Positions 12,145 through 64,000 of a stretch of DNA of 64,000 bases are shown here, piece by piece. Position 1 is the first letter of the stretch; each line of letters begins with the position of its first letter. The notes beneath the pieces are model-generated. The model was not told where the DNA came from. It made no database searches and saw only the letters and a program-made list of their open reading frames with translations. Location: the NCBI RefSeq assembly GCF_021390325.1, contig NZ_JAJUWU010000008.1, positions 124,001 to 188,000 of the forward strand, read 5' to 3'. A program made the translations under genes and the position numbers. Source of the stretch: Jiella avicenniae (GTDB lineage Bacteria; Pseudomonadota; Alphaproteobacteria; Rhizobiales; Rhizobiaceae).

Positions 12145-13622
12145 GCGATCTCACCGCCCTGACCATCGCCGAGGCGCGCGAGAAGCTGGCTGCCCGGCAG
12201 ACCAGCGCGAGCGAACTGACCGAGGCCTATCTGACGGCGATCGAGGCGGCCAATCCGCAGATCAACGCCTATGTAAAGGTGACGCCGGACAAGGCGCGCT
12301 CGATGGCCAAGGCCTCCGACGAGCGGATCGCCAGGGGCGAGGCCGGGCCGCTCGAAGGCATACCGCTCGGTATCAAGGATCTCTTCGCCACCGAGGGCGT
12401 CCATACCCAGGCCGCGAGCCACATTCTCGACGGTTTCGAGCCGCGCTACGAATCGACCGTGACGGCGAACCTCTTTGCCGACGGCGCGGTGATGCTCGGC
12501 AAGCTCAACATGGACGAGTTCGCCATGGGCTCGTCCAACGAGACCTCCTATTACGGCCCGGTGAAGAACCCCTGGCGCAAGCGCGGCTCCAACATGGATC
12601 TCGTGCCGGGCGGCTCGTCCGGCGGTTCGGCCGCATCGGTCGCGGCGCATCTTTGCGCCGGCGCGACGGCGACGGATACGGGCGGCTCGATCCGCCAGCC
12701 GGCGGCGCTGACCGGCACCGTCGGCATCAAGCCGACCTATGGCCGCTGCTCGCGCTGGGGCATCGTCGCCTTCGCCTCCTCGCTCGACCAGGCGGGGCCG
12801 ATCGCCCGCGACGTGCGCGACGCCGCGATCCTGCTGAAATCCATGGCCTCGGTCGACCCGAAGGACACCACCTCGGTCGACCGCGAGGTGCCGGACTACG
12901 AGGCCGCCATCGGCCGTTCGGTGAAGGGCCTGAGGATCGGCGTGCCGAAGGAATACCGCATGGACGGCATGCCGGGCGAGATCGAGACGCTCTGGCAACA
13001 GGGCATCGAATGGCTGAAGGAGGCCGGCGCCGAGATCGTCGACGTCTCGCTGCCGCACACGAAATACGCGCTGCCGGCCTATTACATCGTCGCCCCGGCC
13101 GAGGCTTCGTCCAATCTCGCCCGCTACGACGGCGTGCGCTACGGCCTCAGGGTGCCGGGCAGGGACATCGCCGACATGTATGAAAAGACCCGCGCCGCCG
13201 GCTTCGGCCGCGAGGTGAAGCGGCGCATCATGATCGGCACCTACGTGCTGTCCGCCGGCTATTACGACGCCTACTACCTGCAGGCCCAGAAGGTCCGCAC
13301 GCTGATCAAGCGCGACTTCGAGACCGTCTATGCCGACGGCATCGACGCGCTCCTGACGCCGGCGACGCCGTCGGCCGCCTTCGGCATCGGCGATCAGGAC
13401 ATGGCGGCCGATCCGGTGAAGATGTATCTGAACGACGTCTTCACCGTGACGGTGAACATGGCCGGCCTTCCCGGCATCGCCGTTCCGGCCGGCCTCGACG
13501 CAGGCGGCCTGCCGCTCGGCCTGCAGCTGATCGGACGGCCCTTCGACGAGGAAACGCTGTTTGCGCTCGGCTCGGTGATCGAGAAGGCGGCGGGGCGTTT
13601 CACGCCGCAGAAGTGGTGGTAG
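12141..13622 (+). CDS. gatA: Asp-tRNA(Asn)/Glu-tRNA(Gln) amidotransferase subunit A
   Basis: 493 aa amidase that releases ammonia from glutamine for the tRNA-dependent amidation done by GatB. The Ser-cisSer-Lys triad is visible: Lys in [14 protein letters not shown], the cis-Ser in [14 protein letters not shown], and the nucleophile Ser in [11 protein letters not shown]. Length and C-terminal FTPQKWW are normal for alphaproteobacterial GatA. Translationally coupled to the GNAT gene by ATGA. The gatB partner is far away in the window, at 39442-40941 on the other strand. Confidence 0.97.
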
Positions 13623-13674
13623 CACAAACCTCCGTCGGCGCTGCGCATGACGGAAGATCGGGGAGGGTGGTTCG

Positions 13675-14545: not shown

Positions 14546-14883
14546 CGTCATTCTCGGGCGCCGTGCCGACGAAATTCACACTTGTGGGTCGGCTTGCTCG
14601 GCATGGAGGAATGGTCGCCAAGCTTGAAGCTTCGTCATCCCGGGCTTGACCCAGAATCCATTCCTAAGCGGTAACGCCGCCCGTTCAGTGCAGATAAAAC
14701 AATGTGTTGGGAACGGCCGCCGCAACGAGGGCAACGATTTGGAATGGATCCCGGGTCAAGCCCGGGATGACGAGGTTTTGACGCTCCCGCCCATTCTGCA
14801 AGGTCGTTGCGCCGCGCAATCCGCTGACCGCTGGACCAGGATGAGATGTGTGAATGTTATAGGGACGCGGCCCGAGAATGACG
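14546..14883. repeat. Nested inverted repeat, outer arms 14546-14582 and 14849-14883
   Basis: The left arm starts CGTCATTCTCGGGC and ends GAAATTCACA; the right arm, read in reverse complement, starts CGTCATTCTCGGGC and ends ACATTCACACA. They enclose a second inverted repeat (14633-14772). The whole gap 14380-14922 contains no credible gene; it lies between the convergent ends of the secreted LprI-like gene and mazG. Elements ending in CGTCAT(T/C)C with an inner hairpin are a common dispersed repeat type in Rhizobiales. Confidence 0.75.
14633..14772. repeat. Inner inverted repeat with CGTCATCCCGGG arms
   Basis: Left arm 14633-14663 reads CGTCATCCCGGGCTTGACCC followed by AGAATCCATTCC; right arm 14741-14772 is its reverse complement apart from a small difference in the middle (GGAATGGATCCCGGGTCAAG followed by CCCGGGATGACG). 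The roughly 78 bases between them are unique. A dispersed palindromic element, probably non-coding; could act as a bidirectional transcription stop between the convergent neighbours. Confidence 0.8.
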
Positions 14884-58160: not shown

Positions 58161-59360
58161 TCACCCGCCGACGAGGCTCGGGATCTTCTCCGCCGGCGGC
58201 GTGTTGCGGCTGCGATGCGAGCGCACGACGCCATCGATCACCGTCATGCCGACTCCCGGCAGGTCGCCGAGCGCGATCGAGTGGAGGAAGTCCCGTCCGG
58301 CGGAATGCTGGGCCTTGTCCATGAAGACGAAGTCGGCCGACTTGCCGACCTCGATCAGCCCGCAGTCGAGGGCGCGCATCCGCGCGGTGTTGCCGGTCGC
58401 GAAGCAGAAGGCGATTTCGGCCGGAACCTCGCCGAGCGAGGAAAGCATCGACACCATCCGGACGATGCCGAGCGGCTGGACGCCCGAGCCGGCCGGGCCG
58501 TCGGTGCCGAGGATCACCCGCTCGAGCTGGCCCATTTCTTGGGCAATTCTCAGCGTATAGAGCGCGGCGCGTTCATTGCCGTTGTGGACGAGCTCGAGGC
58601 CGCGCCGGCAGCCCTCGCAGATGCAGCGGATCTCGCCGTCCGGCAGCGCCGTGTGGCCGCCGTTGACGTGGCCGACGACGTCCGGATCGACCTCCAGCAC
58701 CACGTCGGCGTCAATCAGGCCGGAGCCGGGGATCGACGGGCCGCCGGTGTGGATCGTCGAGTTGAAGCCGTGCTTGCGCGCCCAGGCGACCATCTCGCGG
58801 CCCGTCGCACCGTCCTTCACCCCGCCGAGCCCGACCTCGCCGAGGAACTTCACCCCCTGGCTCGCCATCTCGGCGAAATCGTCCTCGACCATGCCGGGCT
58901 CGATGACCGGCGCACCGGCGAGAACCTTCACGCCGCTCGGGCGGAAGTTCGAGAAGATCCGCTGGGCGTAGATCGCCATCGCCTTGACGCCGGCGACGTC
59001 GCGCGGCCGGCCCGGCGTGTGCACCTCGCCCGCCGAAATCATCGTGGTGACCCCGCCATGGAGCGTCGAGTCGATCCAGTTCAGCTGGCTCTGGCGCGGC
59101 GTCCAGTCGCCGGCCACGGGATGGACGTGGCTGTCGATCAGCCCCGGTGCCACGACGGTGCCGTTGGCGTCGATGATCGTGTCGGCCCCGTCGAGATCGA
59201 GATCGGCCGCCTTGCCGATCGCGGCGATGCGCCCGCCGACCGAGACGATGGTGTCCGCATCGAGGATCGGCGTTTCGATGTCGCCCGACAGCATCAGCCC
59301 GACATTGCGGATCACCAGCTTCTCGTCCGGCTTGCCCGCCTGCTGCACCTCATGCGCCAT
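58161..59360 (-). CDS. ena: Enamidase-type amidohydrolase (6-oxo-tetrahydronicotinate hydrolase homologue)
   Basis: 399 aa; the Eubacterium barkeri enamidase is 385 aa. It matches along its length: NVGLMLSGDIETPIL, APGLIDSHVHPVAGDWTPRQ (metal His 78 and 80), LHGGVTTMISAGEVHTPGRP, GEVGLGGVKDG, IHTGGPSIPGSG, GHVNGGHTALP, LGTDGPAGSGVQPLG and a final RNTPPA. Enamidase opens the ring of 1,4,5,6-tetrahydro-6-oxonicotinate in nicotinate breakdown. Azorhizobium degrades nicotinate aerobically through this intermediate, so the role is plausible here, although other cyclic amides are possible. A MarR regulator and an importer follow; the reductase and dehydrogenase steps are not in view. Confidence 0.82.
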   Translation of the reverse strand: MAHEVQQAGKPDEKLVIRNVGLMLSGDIETPILDADTIVSVGGRIAAIGKAADLDLDGADTIIDANGTVVAPGLIDSHVHPVAGDWTPRQSQLNWIDSTLHGGVTTMISAGEVHTPGRPRDVAGVKAMAIYAQRIFSNFRPSGVKVLAGAPVIEPGMVEDDFAEMASQGVKFLGEVGLGGVKDGATGREMVAWARKHGFNSTIHTGGPSIPGSGLIDADVVLEVDPDVVGHVNGGHTALPDGEIRCICEGCRRGLELVHNGNERAALYTLRIAQEMGQLERVILGTDGPAGSGVQPLGIVRMVSMLSSLGEVPAEIAFCFATGNTARMRALDCGLIEVGKSADFVFMDKAQHSAGRDFLHSIALGDLPGVGMTVIDGVVRSHRSRNTPPAEKIPSLVGG

Positions 59361-59397
59361 GCACGGCCCCTCTTCTTTCCGGTGAGTGTCTCGACAT

Positions 59398-59418
59398 ATC
59401 ATTCGCATACGAACGATC
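59398..59418. promoter_or_regulatory. Candidate MarR operator before the enamidase
   Basis: The minus strand reads CGTTCGTATGCGAATG (59400-59415), flanked by GAT before it in that direction; this is nearly the same as the site at 60108-60128. It lies 38 bases upstream of the enamidase start. Approximate palindrome around CGTATNCG. Its repeat upstream of the importer points to shared control by the MarR protein encoded between them. Confidence 0.6.
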
Positions 59419-59555
59419 TTCGGACTATGATGCGCGAAGCAGGCTTTGGCAACCGGGCGGCTCCCCGGGACGGCGGGACGCCAGTGCGCCGCGGGGCGAA
59501 TACATCGTATGATTGCCGGCGGCTGCCCGGCCGGGCAACGAAGGGGAACGACGGT

Positions 59556-60008
59556 TTGGACACAGCACGACATCTCGCCGACGCGCCGAACGAAGCCGGG
59601 GACTACATTCTCGACGAGCAGGTCGGCTTCCTGCTCCGCCAGGCCCAGCAGCGCCACGCCGGCCTGTTTTCCGAGTGTTTCGGCGGCGACGTGACGCCGA
59701 CCCAGTGGGCGGTCCTCGCCAAACTCGCCGAGATCGGCGAATGCTCCCAGAACCTGCTCGGTCGCTACACGGCGATGGACGTCGCCACGATCAAGGGCGT
59801 CGTGCAACGCCTTCTGGCCCGCCGTCTCGTGCTGCGCCGGCGGGACCCGGACGATGGCCGGCAGCTGCTGATATCGCTTTCGGACGAGGGGCGCGCCGCC
59901 TTCGAGGGTCATCTCGCCAATGCCCGCAAGGCCAGCGACCGAACCCTCTCCGTCCTGGACGAGCGGGATCGCGCGGTGTTCCTGCGCTGCCTCAGGGCGT
60001 TGCGGTGA
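59556..60008 (+). CDS. MarR family transcriptional regulator, NicR-like
   Basis: 150 aa winged-helix repressor. ILDEQVGFLLRQAQQRHAGLFSECF is the start-helix block also seen in regulators of nicotinate genes such as NicR; TPTQWAVLAKLAEIGECSQNLLGRYTAMDVATIKGVVQRLLAR is the recognition part; RRRDPDDGRQLLISLSDEG is the wing. Start TTG at 59556 follows AAGGGGAA by about 8 bases; an ATG at 59427 would add 43 residues of low-complexity sequence. It lies between enamidase and importer; a ligand such as a hydroxynicotinate would be expected to release it. Confidence 0.88.
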   Translation: MDTARHLADAPNEAGDYILDEQVGFLLRQAQQRHAGLFSECFGGDVTPTQWAVLAKLAEIGECSQNLLGRYTAMDVATIKGVVQRLLARRLVLRRRDPDDGRQLLISLSDEGRAAFEGHLANARKASDRTLSVLDERDRAVFLRCLRALR

Positions 60009-60090
60009 ACGGGCGAAGCGGCCACAGTCGAGGCTCGGCGCCGCGCCCGGCCGACGCCTGAACAAATTCTGGGCGCAGCCGCGAAGTGAC

Positions 60091-60128
60091 TTGACGGCGG
60101 GCAGAAAGATCGTTCGTATACTAACGGC
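60091..60128 (+). promoter_or_regulatory. Promoter with overlapping MarR-type operator before importer
   Basis: TTGACG (60091-60096) is a good -35; TCGTAT at 60114-60119, 17 bases on, can serve as -10. The palindrome CGTTCGTATACTAACG (60111-60126) covers the -10, so a bound repressor would block initiation. The same motif lies upstream of the enamidase. The importer gene starts at 60198. Confidence 0.55.
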
Positions 60129-60197
60129 ATGGACCGAGGGCCGGACGTTCGCGAGGGCGCGGCGGCGGCCTACGAGCAACAGGACGAGAGGCTGGAA

Positions 60198-61409
60198 ATG
60201 CTGAAGACATTGTCTCGATTGGGCTGCATCTCGATGCTGGTCGGCGCAGGCCTCATGGCCACCGGCGCCACCGGCTGGGCCGACGACATCAAGATCGGCG
60301 AGATCAACAGCTACTCCGCCCTACCCGCCTTCACCGAGCCCTACCGCAAGGGCTGGCAGCTGGCCGTCGAGGAGATCAACGCGAATGGTGGGATCAACGG
60401 CGACACGCTGACCGTCATTTCCAAGGACGACGGCGGCAAGCCGGCGGCGGCCGTCACCGCCGCCAACGAACTCGTCTCGCGCGACGGCGTCGTGCTTCTG
60501 ACCGGCGGGTTCTTTTCCAATGTCGGTCTCGCCATCGCCGACTTCGCCAGCCACAAGGACGTGCTCTATCTCGCCGGCGAACCGCTGACCGACGCGATCA
60601 CCTGGTCCGAGGGCAACGAATACACCTTCCGGCTCCGCCCATCGAACTACATGCAGGCGGCGATGCTCGCCGAGCAGGCGGCGAAGCTGCCGGCCAAGCG
60701 CTGGGCGACCGTCGCTCCGAACTACGAATACGGCCAGTCCGCGGTGAAGGTCTTCAAGGAACTCCTGAAGAAGGCCAAGCCCGACGTCGAATTCGTCGCC
60801 GAACAGTGGCCGCCGCTCGGCAAGATCGACGGCGGTGCCGTCGCTCAGGCGCTCGCCGCCGCAGATCCCGAGGCGATCCTCAACGTCGAGTTCGGCGCCG
60901 ATCTTGTTCAGTTCGTGCGCGAGGGCACGACCCGCGGCCTGTTCGAGGATCGCTCCGTCGTCAGCTTCCTCACCGGCGAACCGGAATATCTCGAGCCCCT
61001 GGGCGCCGAGGCGCCGGAGGGCTGGATCGTCACCGGCTATCCCTGGTACGCCATCGAGACGCCCGAGCACACCGCCTTCATGAAGGCCTACGAAGCGAAA
61101 TACGGCGAGCACCCCTATCTCGGCTCGCTCGTCGGCTATGTCGAGTTCAAGGCCATCGCCGCAATCCTGAAGAAGGCCGGGTCGACGGAGACGGAAGACC
61201 TGATCGCCGCCGCCAAGGGCCTGAAGCTCGGCACCCCGTTCGGCGAGATCACCCTGCGGGAGATCGATCACCAGTCGACCCTCGGCGCCTATGTCGGCAA
61301 GACCGCCGTCAAGGACGGCAAGGGCGTGATGGTCGACTTCACCTACAAGGACGGGGCGGACTACCTGCCGTCCGACGACGAGGTGAAGGAGCTGCGGCCG
61401 CAGAACTGA
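60198..61409 (+). CDS. Branched-chain-type ABC importer, periplasmic substrate-binding protein
   Basis: 403 aa. Signal peptide LSRLGCISMLVGAGLMATGATGWA, cleavage near residue 28. The type I fold begins IKIGEINSYSALPAFTEPYRKGWQLAVEEINANGGING; LTGGFFSNVGLAIADFA, RWATVAPNYEYGQSAVKVFKELL and VGYVEFKAIAAILKKAG follow the LivJ pattern. Such proteins bind amino acids, amides or aromatic acids; linkage to enamidase suggests a nicotinate-like acid. GAGAGG lies before the ATG. The permease begins 47 bases after. Confidence 0.9.
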   Translation: MLKTLSRLGCISMLVGAGLMATGATGWADDIKIGEINSYSALPAFTEPYRKGWQLAVEEINANGGINGDTLTVISKDDGGKPAAAVTAANELVSRDGVVLLTGGFFSNVGLAIADFASHKDVLYLAGEPLTDAITWSEGNEYTFRLRPSNYMQAAMLAEQAAKLPAKRWATVAPNYEYGQSAVKVFKELLKKAKPDVEFVAEQWPPLGKIDGGAVAQALAAADPEAILNVEFGADLVQFVREGTTRGLFEDRSVVSFLTGEPEYLEPLGAEAPEGWIVTGYPWYAIETPEHTAFMKAYEAKYGEHPYLGSLVGYVEFKAIAAILKKAGSTETEDLIAAAKGLKLGTPFGEITLREIDHQSTLGAYVGKTAVKDGKGVMVDFTYKDGADYLPSDDEVKELRPQN

Positions 61410-61455
61410 GAACGGCGCGAGGCAGCAACGCAATCTGGGCAGGGACTGCGGACCG

Positions 61456-63354
61456 ATGGCACTTTATATCGCGCAGTTCCTGACCGGGCTCGCCAACGCC
61501 TCGTCGCTCTTTCTGGCGGCATGCGGCCTGTCGGTGATCTTCGGGGTGACCCGGATCGTCAACTTCGCCCATGGCGCCTTCTACATGCTCGGCGCCTATG
61601 TCGCGTACTCGTTGACCCTGAGGTTGGAGGGCGTCTTCGGCTTCTGGGCCGGCATCCTCCTCGCCGCTGCCATCGTCGCGGTTCTCGGCGCCATCCTCGA
61701 GATGCTGCTCCTGCGCCGTATCTACCAAGCGCCGGAGCTGTTCCAGCTACTCGCCACCTTCGGCGTCACGCTGATGGTGGAGGATCTCGTCCACATCATC
61801 TGGGGTCCGCAGGACCTCGTCGGCCCCCGCGCACCGGGCCTCGAGGGCGCCGTACCGGTCTTCGGCCTGCCGGTGCCGACCTACGATCTCCTGCTGATCG
61901 TCCTCGGCCCCCTCGTCCTCGGCGCGCTCTGGCTCCTGATGCATCGCACCCGCTGGGGCGTCCTGGTGCGCGCCGCGACCCAGGATCGCGACATGGTGGC
62001 GGCGCTCGGCGTCAATCAGAAATGGCTGTTCACCGGCGTCTTCACCCTCGGCATCTTCCTCGCGGCCTTCGGCGGCGCGCTGCAGATCCCCCGCACGGCC
62101 GTCACCCACCAGATGGATCTGACGATCATCGCCGAGGTCTTCGTCGTCGTCGTCATCGGCGGCCTCGGCTCGATCACCGGCGCCTTCCTCGCCGCCGTGC
62201 TGATTTCCGAACTCAACGCCTTCGGCATTCTCGTCCTGCCCGGCATCTCGCTCGTCCTGATGTTCCTGGTCATGGCCGTCGTCCTCGTCATCCGGCCCTG
62301 GGGCTTCCTCGGCAAGCCGATCCAGACCGGCGTGACGACCATCGGCGAGGCGACGCGGCCCTGGCGGCCCTGGTCGAACGCCACCGCCGCCGCGGTCGCC
62401 GCCGCCGTCCTCGTCGCGGCGCTGCTGCCGCTCGTCCTCGGCTCCTACGGCCTCAGCGTCGGTGCGCAGATCCTCATCGCCGTCGTCTTCGCCATGAGCC
62501 TGCAGTTCCAGATGTCGACCGGCGGCCTCGATTCCTTCGGCCATGCCGCCTATTTCGGCCTCGGCGCCTATGGCGCGGCGCTCACCGTCGAATGGTTCGA
62601 CCTGCCGATGGAACTGGCGCTCCTCGTCGGCCCGCTGACCGGCCTCGTCGGCGCCCTGGTCTTCGGCTGGTTCTGCGTCCGGCTCTCCGGCGTCTATTTC
62701 GCCATGCTCACCCTAGCCTTCGCCCAGATCACCTGGTCGATCGCCTTCCAGTGGGTCGAGGTGACCGGCGGCGACAACGGCATTCTCGGGGTCTGGCCGG
62801 CCGACTGGGCGTCGAGCCCCGCCACCTTCTACTGGCTGACGCTTGCCGTGGCCGTCGTCGCGGTCCTCGCCCTGCGCCATCTCGTCTTCTCGTCCTTCGG
62901 CTACCGGCTGCGGGCAGTGCGGGATTCGGCGGTCCGGGCCGAGGCGGTCGGCATCTCCCGCCAGCGCACGCAATACGTCGCCTTCGCCATCTCAGGCACG
63001 GCGGCAGGCCTCGCCGGCGCGCTCTTCGCGTTCCTGAAGGGCAGCATCTTTCCCGACGTCCTCGCCATCCCGACCTCGATCGACGCGCTCGTCATGGTGC
63101 TGCTCGGCGGCGTCGCCACGGTCTCGGGCTCGGTGGTCGGCGCGATCGTCTACACCATGGCCTCGATCTGGCTGATGAGCGCCACCGATCTGTCGCGGCT
63201 CGTCCTCGGCGGCTTCATCGTCTTCCTCGTCGTGGCCTTCCCGCAGGGCATCGTCGGCTCGCTCTCGGCCTTCGTGGCCGGCCCGGTCGAGCGCTGGCGC
63301 AGCGGCGGCCGGACCGAGCGAACCATCGCCCTGCCGGCGGAGGGCTCCCGATGA
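61456..63354 (+). CDS. Fused LivH-LivM branched-chain-type ABC permease
   Basis: 632 aa membrane protein. The first half matches LivH: NASSLFLAACGLSVIFGVTRIVNFAHGAFYMLGAY, with the EAA-like GGLGSITGAFLAAVLI; the second, from about 310, matches LivM: GGLDSFGHAAYFGLGAYGAAL, LRAVRDSAVRAEAVGIS and GGVATVSGSVVGAIVYT. Fusing the two permeases is less common than separate genes. Its TGA overlaps the ATG of the next ATPase gene (ATGA), so they are translated together. Confidence 0.93.
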   Translation: MALYIAQFLTGLANASSLFLAACGLSVIFGVTRIVNFAHGAFYMLGAYVAYSLTLRLEGVFGFWAGILLAAAIVAVLGAILEMLLLRRIYQAPELFQLLATFGVTLMVEDLVHIIWGPQDLVGPRAPGLEGAVPVFGLPVPTYDLLLIVLGPLVLGALWLLMHRTRWGVLVRAATQDRDMVAALGVNQKWLFTGVFTLGIFLAAFGGALQIPRTAVTHQMDLTIIAEVFVVVVIGGLGSITGAFLAAVLISELNAFGILVLPGISLVLMFLVMAVVLVIRPWGFLGKPIQTGVTTIGEATRPWRPWSNATAAAVAAAVLVAALLPLVLGSYGLSVGAQILIAVVFAMSLQFQMSTGGLDSFGHAAYFGLGAYGAALTVEWFDLPMELALLVGPLTGLVGALVFGWFCVRLSGVYFAMLTLAFAQITWSIAFQWVEVTGGDNGILGVWPADWASSPATFYWLTLAVAVVAVLALRHLVFSSFGYRLRAVRDSAVRAEAVGISRQRTQYVAFAISGTAAGLAGALFAFLKGSIFPDVLAIPTSIDALVMVLLGGVATVSGSVVGAIVYTMASIWLMSATDLSRLVLGGFIVFLVVAFPQGIVGSLSAFVAGPVERWRSGGRTERTIALPAEGSR

Positions 63355-64000
63355 GCGCCGCGCCGCTGCTCCAGGTCGAGCATCTGTCGAAGTCCTATGG
63401 CGGCGTCCATGCCGTTCAGGACGTCTCCTTCGAACTCCACCCCGGCGAGATGCTGGCGCTGATCGGGCCGAACGGCGCCGGCAAGAGCACCTGCTTCAAC
63501 ATGGTCGGCGGCCAGATCCCCGCCGGCTCCGGCCGCGTCAGGATCGACGGCCGCGACGTCTCGGGCCTGTCGCCCCGCCAGATCTGGCATCTCGGCGTCG
63601 GTCGGACGTTTCAGGTGGCACAGGTGTTCAAGTCCATGACCGTGCGCGAGAACGTCCAGACCGTGTTCGCCTCGCGCGAAAGCGGCTGGGGTTTTCTCGC
63701 CCGGGCCGGCCAGGCCCATCGCGCCGAAGCCGAGGCTGTCCTCGACCTCATCGGCATGGCCGATTTCGCCGATCGTCCCTGTGCCGACATGGCCTATGGC
63801 GACGTCAAGCGGCTGGAACTCGCCATGGCCCTCGCCAACGATCCGAAGCTGCTCCTGATGGACGAGCCGGCCGCCGGCATGGCGCCGCTGGAGCGGGTCG
63901 AACTGATGGGGCTGACGGCGCGGATCGCCAAGGAGAGGCAGATCGGCGTCCTCTTCACCGAGCACGACATGGACGTCGTCTTCGCCCATGCCGACCGGAT
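63351..64000 (+). CDS. LivG-type ABC importer ATPase, cut by right edge
   Basis: Begins [27 protein letters not shown]. Walker [10 protein letters not shown], LivG-type [20 protein letters not shown], a degenerate signature [16 protein letters not shown], Walker [14 protein letters not shown] and the H-loop [10 protein letters not shown] are all present within 216 codons. Only the tail is missing. A LivF partner is expected next. ATGA overlap with the permease gene. Confidence 0.95.

Follow-up and report, generated by a model that had tools for sequence, protein, structure and literature searches.

An enamidase locus of Jiella avicenniae as part of a probable aerobic nicotinate pathway, and the pairing of UPF0280 with 6-hydroxynicotinate reductase

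At the right end of a 64,000-nucleotide stretch of the Jiella avicenniae genome (hereafter the window, part of the 271-kb contig C47), a gene for an enamidase, ena, stands beside a MarR-type regulator gene and a branched-chain-type importer. Do these genes belong to a pathway of nicotinate breakdown and, if so, where are its other genes? An earlier note on the window had proposed an aerobic copy of the fermentative pathway, continuing past the right edge. The comparisons reported here make it probable, with good confidence, that the genes cover ring opening, regulation, uptake and hydroxylation in an aerobic nicotinate pathway, a reading that includes a step for the protein family UPF0280. The proposal fits the upper steps: livF, a hydroxylase, a reductase (hnr) and ena are all present in the genome, and form one locus in two congeners.

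In the proposed pathway, the LivJ-HM-G-F importer would bring nicotinate into the cell, and NicA/NicB (a 2Fe-2S subunit and a molybdopterin subunit extended by fused cytochrome c domains) would hydroxylate it, giving 6-hydroxynicotinate. The product of hnr, a gene on contig C18, would reduce this compound to 1,4,5,6-tetrahydro-6-oxonicotinate, the ring of which Ena is expected to hydrolyse, yielding 2-formylglutarate and ammonia. MarR, probably a sensor of 6-hydroxynicotinate, would repress the ena/marR, livJHMGF-nicAB and hnr units through a GTTCGTATACGAAC-like operator. Finally, UPF0280, an ApbE-fold protein whose gene adjoins hnr in relatives and lies on contig C27 in the present genome, would probably load or covalently attach the flavin of Hnr.

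From the window to the rest of the pathway

Gene identities and gene order rest on comparison of sequences and solved structures. Among solved chains, 2VUN_A, the Eubacterium barkeri enamidase, aligns to residues 14-394 of the 399 residues of Ena (E 5.6e-113) and shares its SRNTPPA end, which bears out the likeness to the E. barkeri ring-opening enzyme, RNTPPA end included, seen in the earlier note; the next-best chain, the best allantoinase, reaches E 2.3e-6, more than 100 orders of magnitude behind. Six residues of Ena (H78, H80, E175, H204, H231 and D287), which we take to be the amidohydrolase metal ligands, are invariant in 43/43 aligned proteins (Ena itself and 43 fetched sequences, minus one of 284 residues dropped as truncated). 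The features of this part of the window are as follows.

58161..59360 (-): ena, enamidase, 399 residues, ATG at 59360, matching 2VUN_A
59401..59414 (+): operator-like palindrome ATTCGCATACGAAC, 40 bp upstream of ena, between ena and the divergent marR, 2 mismatches to GTTCGTATACGAAC
59556..60008 (+): marR, MarR-type regulator, 150 residues, TTG start, BpsR-like, Pfam PF12802/PF01047 (MarR_2/MarR)
60112..60125 (+): operator-like palindrome GTTCGTATACTAAC, before livJ, 1 mismatch to GTTCGTATACGAAC
60198..61409 (+): livJ-type periplasmic binding protein (PF13458, E 1.2e-69), reading frame open from 60129; ATG 60198 is the likely start, picked by eye from a ribosome-binding site and a signal-like N-terminus
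61456..63354 (+): livHM, fused permease, 632 residues (PF02653, E 8.5e-67, 2 stretches)
63351..64000 (+): livG ATPase, running past the window edge to end at C47:188139

The MarR gene and the importer genes livJ, livHM and livG are thus found where the earlier note had placed them. Past the window, contig C47 runs on with the end of livG, livF, nicA and nicB, all on the same strand, so that both the second ATPase and the molybdopterin hydroxylase sought to the right are present directly past the edge. The livF start overlaps the livG stop, the gene for the [2Fe-2S] subunit follows 9 bases after livF and, after a 0.3-kb gap, comes the gene for a molybdopterin subunit, some 1,200 residues long, that includes cytochrome c domains, which is the NicA/NicB arrangement. 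Plasmid relatives of the large subunit show about 60% identity to it, and 3 of the 15 matches listed are annotated nicB. On account of this same-strand run, the importer and the first enzyme (livJHMGF-nicAB) look like one transcription unit.

The reductase was traced through plasmid relatives of ena (n=5). In three annotated plasmids (two from Sulfitobacter, one from a Comamonadaceae), an annotated 6-hydroxynicotinate reductase lies at most 5 kb from ena, in the company of UPF0280 and two 'amino acid synthesis' (AA_synth) proteins; in an unannotated Rhizobium plasmid, tblastn finds hnr and the same companions near ena. The fifth, from Shinella, encodes a more remote ena relative (45%), and no reductase is annotated close to it; this enamidase-like gene adjoins one AA_synth gene. 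Queries taken from the annotated plasmids locate hnr in the present genome at C18:45321-46745 (67% identical to the Sulfitobacter protein so annotated), and UPF0280 with two AA_synth genes on a third contig, C27 (13.4 kb). The expectation that the rest of the pathway lies past the right edge therefore holds for livF and the molybdenum hydroxylase; the reductase lies elsewhere in the genome.

The E. barkeri fermentation of nicotinate, reportedly described by Alhapel in 2006, shares the enamidase and 6-hydroxynicotinate reductase steps, but its hydroxylase has four subunits, whereas a cytochrome c-bearing NicAB-type enzyme is found here. The nic cluster of Pseudomonas putida has, like the present locus, a NicA/NicB-type hydroxylase and a MarR-type regulator. 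P. putida, however, opens the ring oxidatively while it is still aromatic (PMC9304392, in the portion cited), whereas here the ring would be reduced first and then hydrolysed. An aerobic nicotinate cluster with reductive ring opening is known from Azorhizobium caulinodans, Bradyrhizobium (Bradyrhizobiaceae), Rhodopseudomonas and strain SG-6C (PMC3511419), and the locus belongs to this published kind, with the difference that here it is split over three contigs. No paper naming both 6-hydroxynicotinate reductase and enamidase appeared in the open-access literature searched. The locus itself adds a further example of a pathway already published, and its value lies in what the comparison exposes.

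UPF0280 and the flavin of 6-hydroxynicotinate reductase

The 2012 description of the aerobic cluster left two conserved proteins unexplained, and gives the conserved unknown proteins no role in the portion cited (PMC3511419). UPF0280 is probably one of these two; it corresponds to NCBIfam NF003322, named 'hypothetical protein', and no paper naming UPF0280 was found in the open-access literature searched. In a GTDB scan with an hnr alignment, the best 80 of at least 590 confirmed loci were retained, with flanks fetched up to 10 kb and often cut by contig ends. UPF0280 directly follows hnr in 73 of the 76 loci in which 900 bp or more after hnr could be inspected; two of the four loci set aside for having less still show it. 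Of the three exceptions, L031 has UPF0280 8 kb away, and L044 and L104 show none in their flanks. Among 249 genomes of the order, 66 carry hnr, 65 UPF0280, 64 both and 182 neither; hnr occurs without UPF0280 in G109 and G165 (the latter with a short hnr fragment only), and the opposite case is G167. Moreover, across 397 genomes of the phylum the two genes occur in an identical set of 38 genomes, of which 21 were absent from the hnr list of the order sample. In 37 of the 38 they adjoin each other; only in the present genome are they apart. These counts ignore kinship and, as the UPF0280 queries were taken from hnr neighbours, concern this subfamily.

The family alignments comprise 39 of 80 Hnr and 42 of 76 UPF0280 sequences. 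Four of the 80 loci were left out of the Hnr set for in-frame stops, which are ascribed, without individual checking, to N-terminal extension (L031, L047, L053) or to run-on into the next gene (L101). The profile match to UPF0280 in the present genome likewise carries one TGA, as it extends beyond the stop codon of the gene (C27:12130-12132); within the gene the frame is uninterrupted.

By structural comparison, UPF0280 has the ApbE fold over 200-222 aligned residues, most of the protein. GGD and TSG motifs are common to UPF0280 and the ApbE family, and an ADxxxT motif, present in 77/77 UPF0280 sequences, coincides with that of ApbE in an hhalign comparison spanning 93 columns (prob 87, E 3.9e-6). 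For the ApbE comparison set, 10 of 15 loci were given, 6 recovered and 5 aligned. In fold and motifs UPF0280 resembles the ApbE/Ftp/FmnB transferases, in which the base of flavin transfer is His257 according to the portion of the ApbE study cited (PMC12052999). It differs from them in having no obvious signal peptide by eye, in lacking the H..DP loop, and in that its presumed client, Hnr, lacks the ApbE client motif. We take His257 to be located in the SH..DP loop of ApbE.

UPF0280 could well be a cytosolic flavin transferase dedicated to Hnr, belonging to a branch of the ApbE fold that lacks the His and acting on an attachment site unlike the ApbE motif, although we propose this tentatively; the site is possibly the nearly constant TGG[S/T] stretch of Hnr. 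It may instead serve the pathway in some other capacity, for instance as a flavin chaperone or as a protein that has lost transferase chemistry, and this too is a serious possibility. Such a role would agree with the deletion of the SH..DP loop in the UPF0280 alignment (H..DP occurs in 1/77 sequences), with the occurrence of DxxS/TGAS/T in 0/81 Hnr, with PF02424 scores of 19.1 and 20.1 bits in two members against a cut-off of 25.6, and with the hnr bearers that have no UPF0280 (G109 among the genomes of the order and, as far as their flanks extend, L044 and L104). At the looser limit of E<=0.1, PF02424 matches 27/42 UPF0280 members (best 2.1e-5). Against such a role stand the extent of the ApbE fold and the near one-to-one, adjacent occurrence of UPF0280 and hnr, which includes 27/27 order-sample hnr genomes without a close ena; G109 has a canonical ApbE and so need not be an exception as regards flavinylation.

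If UPF0280 is indeed the flavin transferase of Hnr, this would explain how the covalent flavin of a dearomatising reductase gets installed, would account for the 39 order-sample hnr genomes, the present one included, that have UPF0280 without canonical ApbE, and would extend flavin transferases beyond His/DxxSGAT chemistry. UPF0280 now has a partner with which it almost always occurs, an assigned fold and a proposed function open to experiment; its link with Hnr is the part worth testing. Among the matches listed in open-access searches, none on ApbE or covalent flavin transfer mentions hydroxynicotinate, and none on barkeri, covalent flavin and hydroxynicotinate has a title on Hnr.

Canonical ApbE was also considered as a general flavin loader of Hnr, and was rejected. 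The present genome has no PF02424 match, 40 of the 66 order-sample hnr genomes have none above the cut-off (G114 and G130, best E near 1e-3, being assumed to be the two below-cut-off matches), and the presence of canonical ApbE does not follow that of hnr (26/66 genomes with hnr, 85/183 without; Fisher p 0.39).

A dispersed locus and a shared palindrome

Within the genus, hnr is found in 4/10 genomes. In two congeners, G254 and G252, the genes stand in one row, hnr-upf0280-aas1-aas2-ena-marR-livJHMGF-nicA-nicB, whereas in the present genome ena, hnr and the upf0280 trio lie on C47, C18 and C27, respectively. The intact locus of the congeners indicates that the cluster is rearranged here, the exact arrangement being uncertain owing to contig breaks. 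Near the end of C18 sits hnr; that contig ends about 440 bp after it, at L018:17040-17206, where the reverse translation presumably resembles an IS110-type transposase end. A third congener, G249 (L126; genome completeness 84%), has hnr and upf0280 each in two pieces, for which sequencing error and decay are both possible.

Besides the two sites in the window, a near-palindrome of GTTCGTATACGAAC lies before hnr on C18 (L018:15242). Across the 80 hnr loci, 76 of 80 palindrome sites fall at most 400 bp upstream of a nic gene, many of the loci being related Bradyrhizobium and the counts thus not independent. In the 20 of 80 loci covered by the control, 19 sites were found, against a mean of 0.42 and a maximum of 5 for shuffled palindromes. 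The occurrence of one palindrome before ena/marR, livJ and hnr suggests one regulon, and would provide a simple handle for finding scattered nicotinate genes in draft genomes. Judged by title or abstract start, the papers on nicotinate-MarR regulons found in the open-access literature searched do not concern a GTTCGTATACGAAC-like operator.

The dispersal raises the question of whether the pathway is decaying here, the split cluster being poorly expressed or non-functional. The spread over three contigs would fit, as would the fact that ena on C47 adjoins a gene we take to be tyrS-like rather than aas2, and the 95-bp exact inverted repeat that bounds C27 (L024 positions 1-95 and 13249-13343). 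However, all the pathway genes found have intact reading frames of the usual length, hnr, livJ and ena/marR are each still preceded by the palindrome, and the contig breaks in part reflect assembly; decay is accordingly considered unlikely.

Substrate of the pathway

The nearest solved chains to MarR, which is encoded divergently from ena, are 2nnn (E 2.2e-39) and Bordetella BpsR (6pcp, E 7e-22). BpsR contacts 6-hydroxynicotinate via Tyr15, His23, Arg26 and His32, according to the portion of its description cited (PMC6837509). The Tyr, the Arg and His32 are kept in 58/58 MarR proteins (that of the window and 57 from the loci), so that the window MarR retains three of the four contacts. The flanks of the 80 hnr loci contain a MarR gene in 57, livHM in 55 and an ena homologue in 43 (in L088 and L096 at only 53 and 48% identity). 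In the order sample, ena at >=64% identity occurs in 39/66 hnr genomes and in 4/183 others.

Several observations weigh against the proposed pathway and its regulation. The His23 position of BpsR is Phe in 56/58 MarR proteins, the window's included. Ena and Hnr do not always occur together, 27/66 hnr genomes having no ena at >=64% identity. No genes were assigned beyond 2-formylglutarate, the 2-formylglutarate/hydroxymethylglutarate dehydrogenase not having been searched for. As hnr, the trio and ena are on three contigs, co-regulation rests on the palindrome; the two window sites taken alone are at chance level (2 found, 1.20 expected at <=3 mismatches), the palindrome lies upstream of a nic gene in 47/80 loci and not in all, no copy at <=2 mismatches occurs on C27, and none precedes hnr in congener G252 (L130).

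The same enzymes might serve another natural substrate, a substituted nicotinate or other pyridine carboxylate entering at or before 6-hydroxynicotinate. Molybdenum hydroxylases of the NicA/NicB family can have broad substrate ranges, and the hydroxylase type, assigned by script, varies among the hnr loci (50 NicAB, among them L104 with matches of only 26-39% identity; 26 Ndh; 4 neither). Moreover, in strain SG-6C 6-chloronicotinate enters such a cluster by way of 6-hydroxynicotinate (PMC3511419, in the portion cited). Nevertheless, NicA/NicB and Hnr jointly point to nicotinate, MarR retains three of the four BpsR residues that bind 6-hydroxynicotinate, and a different substrate appears improbable. 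A reading of Ena as a common hydantoinase/dihydropyrimidinase-like enzyme that serves pyrimidine or hydantoin breakdown, adjoining an unrelated amino-acid importer, would suit its Pfam matches (only Amidohydro_1/3) and the absence of any match at family cut-off among the NCBIfam matches listed, but is very hard to reconcile with its far closer match to enamidase than to allantoinase, its association with hnr across genomes and the palindrome that the ena/marR gap shares with the importer-hydroxylase operon.

Another ring-opening enzyme may serve in the 27 hnr genomes without a close ena, for example those of family f18. A second enamidase-like branch of 41-46% identity is found in nine genomes (G004, G018, G035, G052, G084, G167, G204, G212 and G221), five of which carry hnr, and also in L015.

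Genes of the AA_synth family (PF06684) accompany upf0280 (L024:10951-12116; loci L026-L105), the aas2 type in 70/80 loci and the aas1 type in 34/80. Their relatives of solved structure, 3byq and 2qtp, are themselves uncharacterised, an action of these proteins on 2-formylglutarate is guesswork, and no paper linking DUF1185 or an amino acid synthesis protein with nicotinate was found in the open-access literature searched.

The genes after nicB are of mla type, judged from their translations. Short REP-like repeats occur in the window at 14607-14824 and outside it at L009:9550-9690 and 13446-13645, L018:16966-17043 and L024:813-906, among other places in the nicA-nicB gap.

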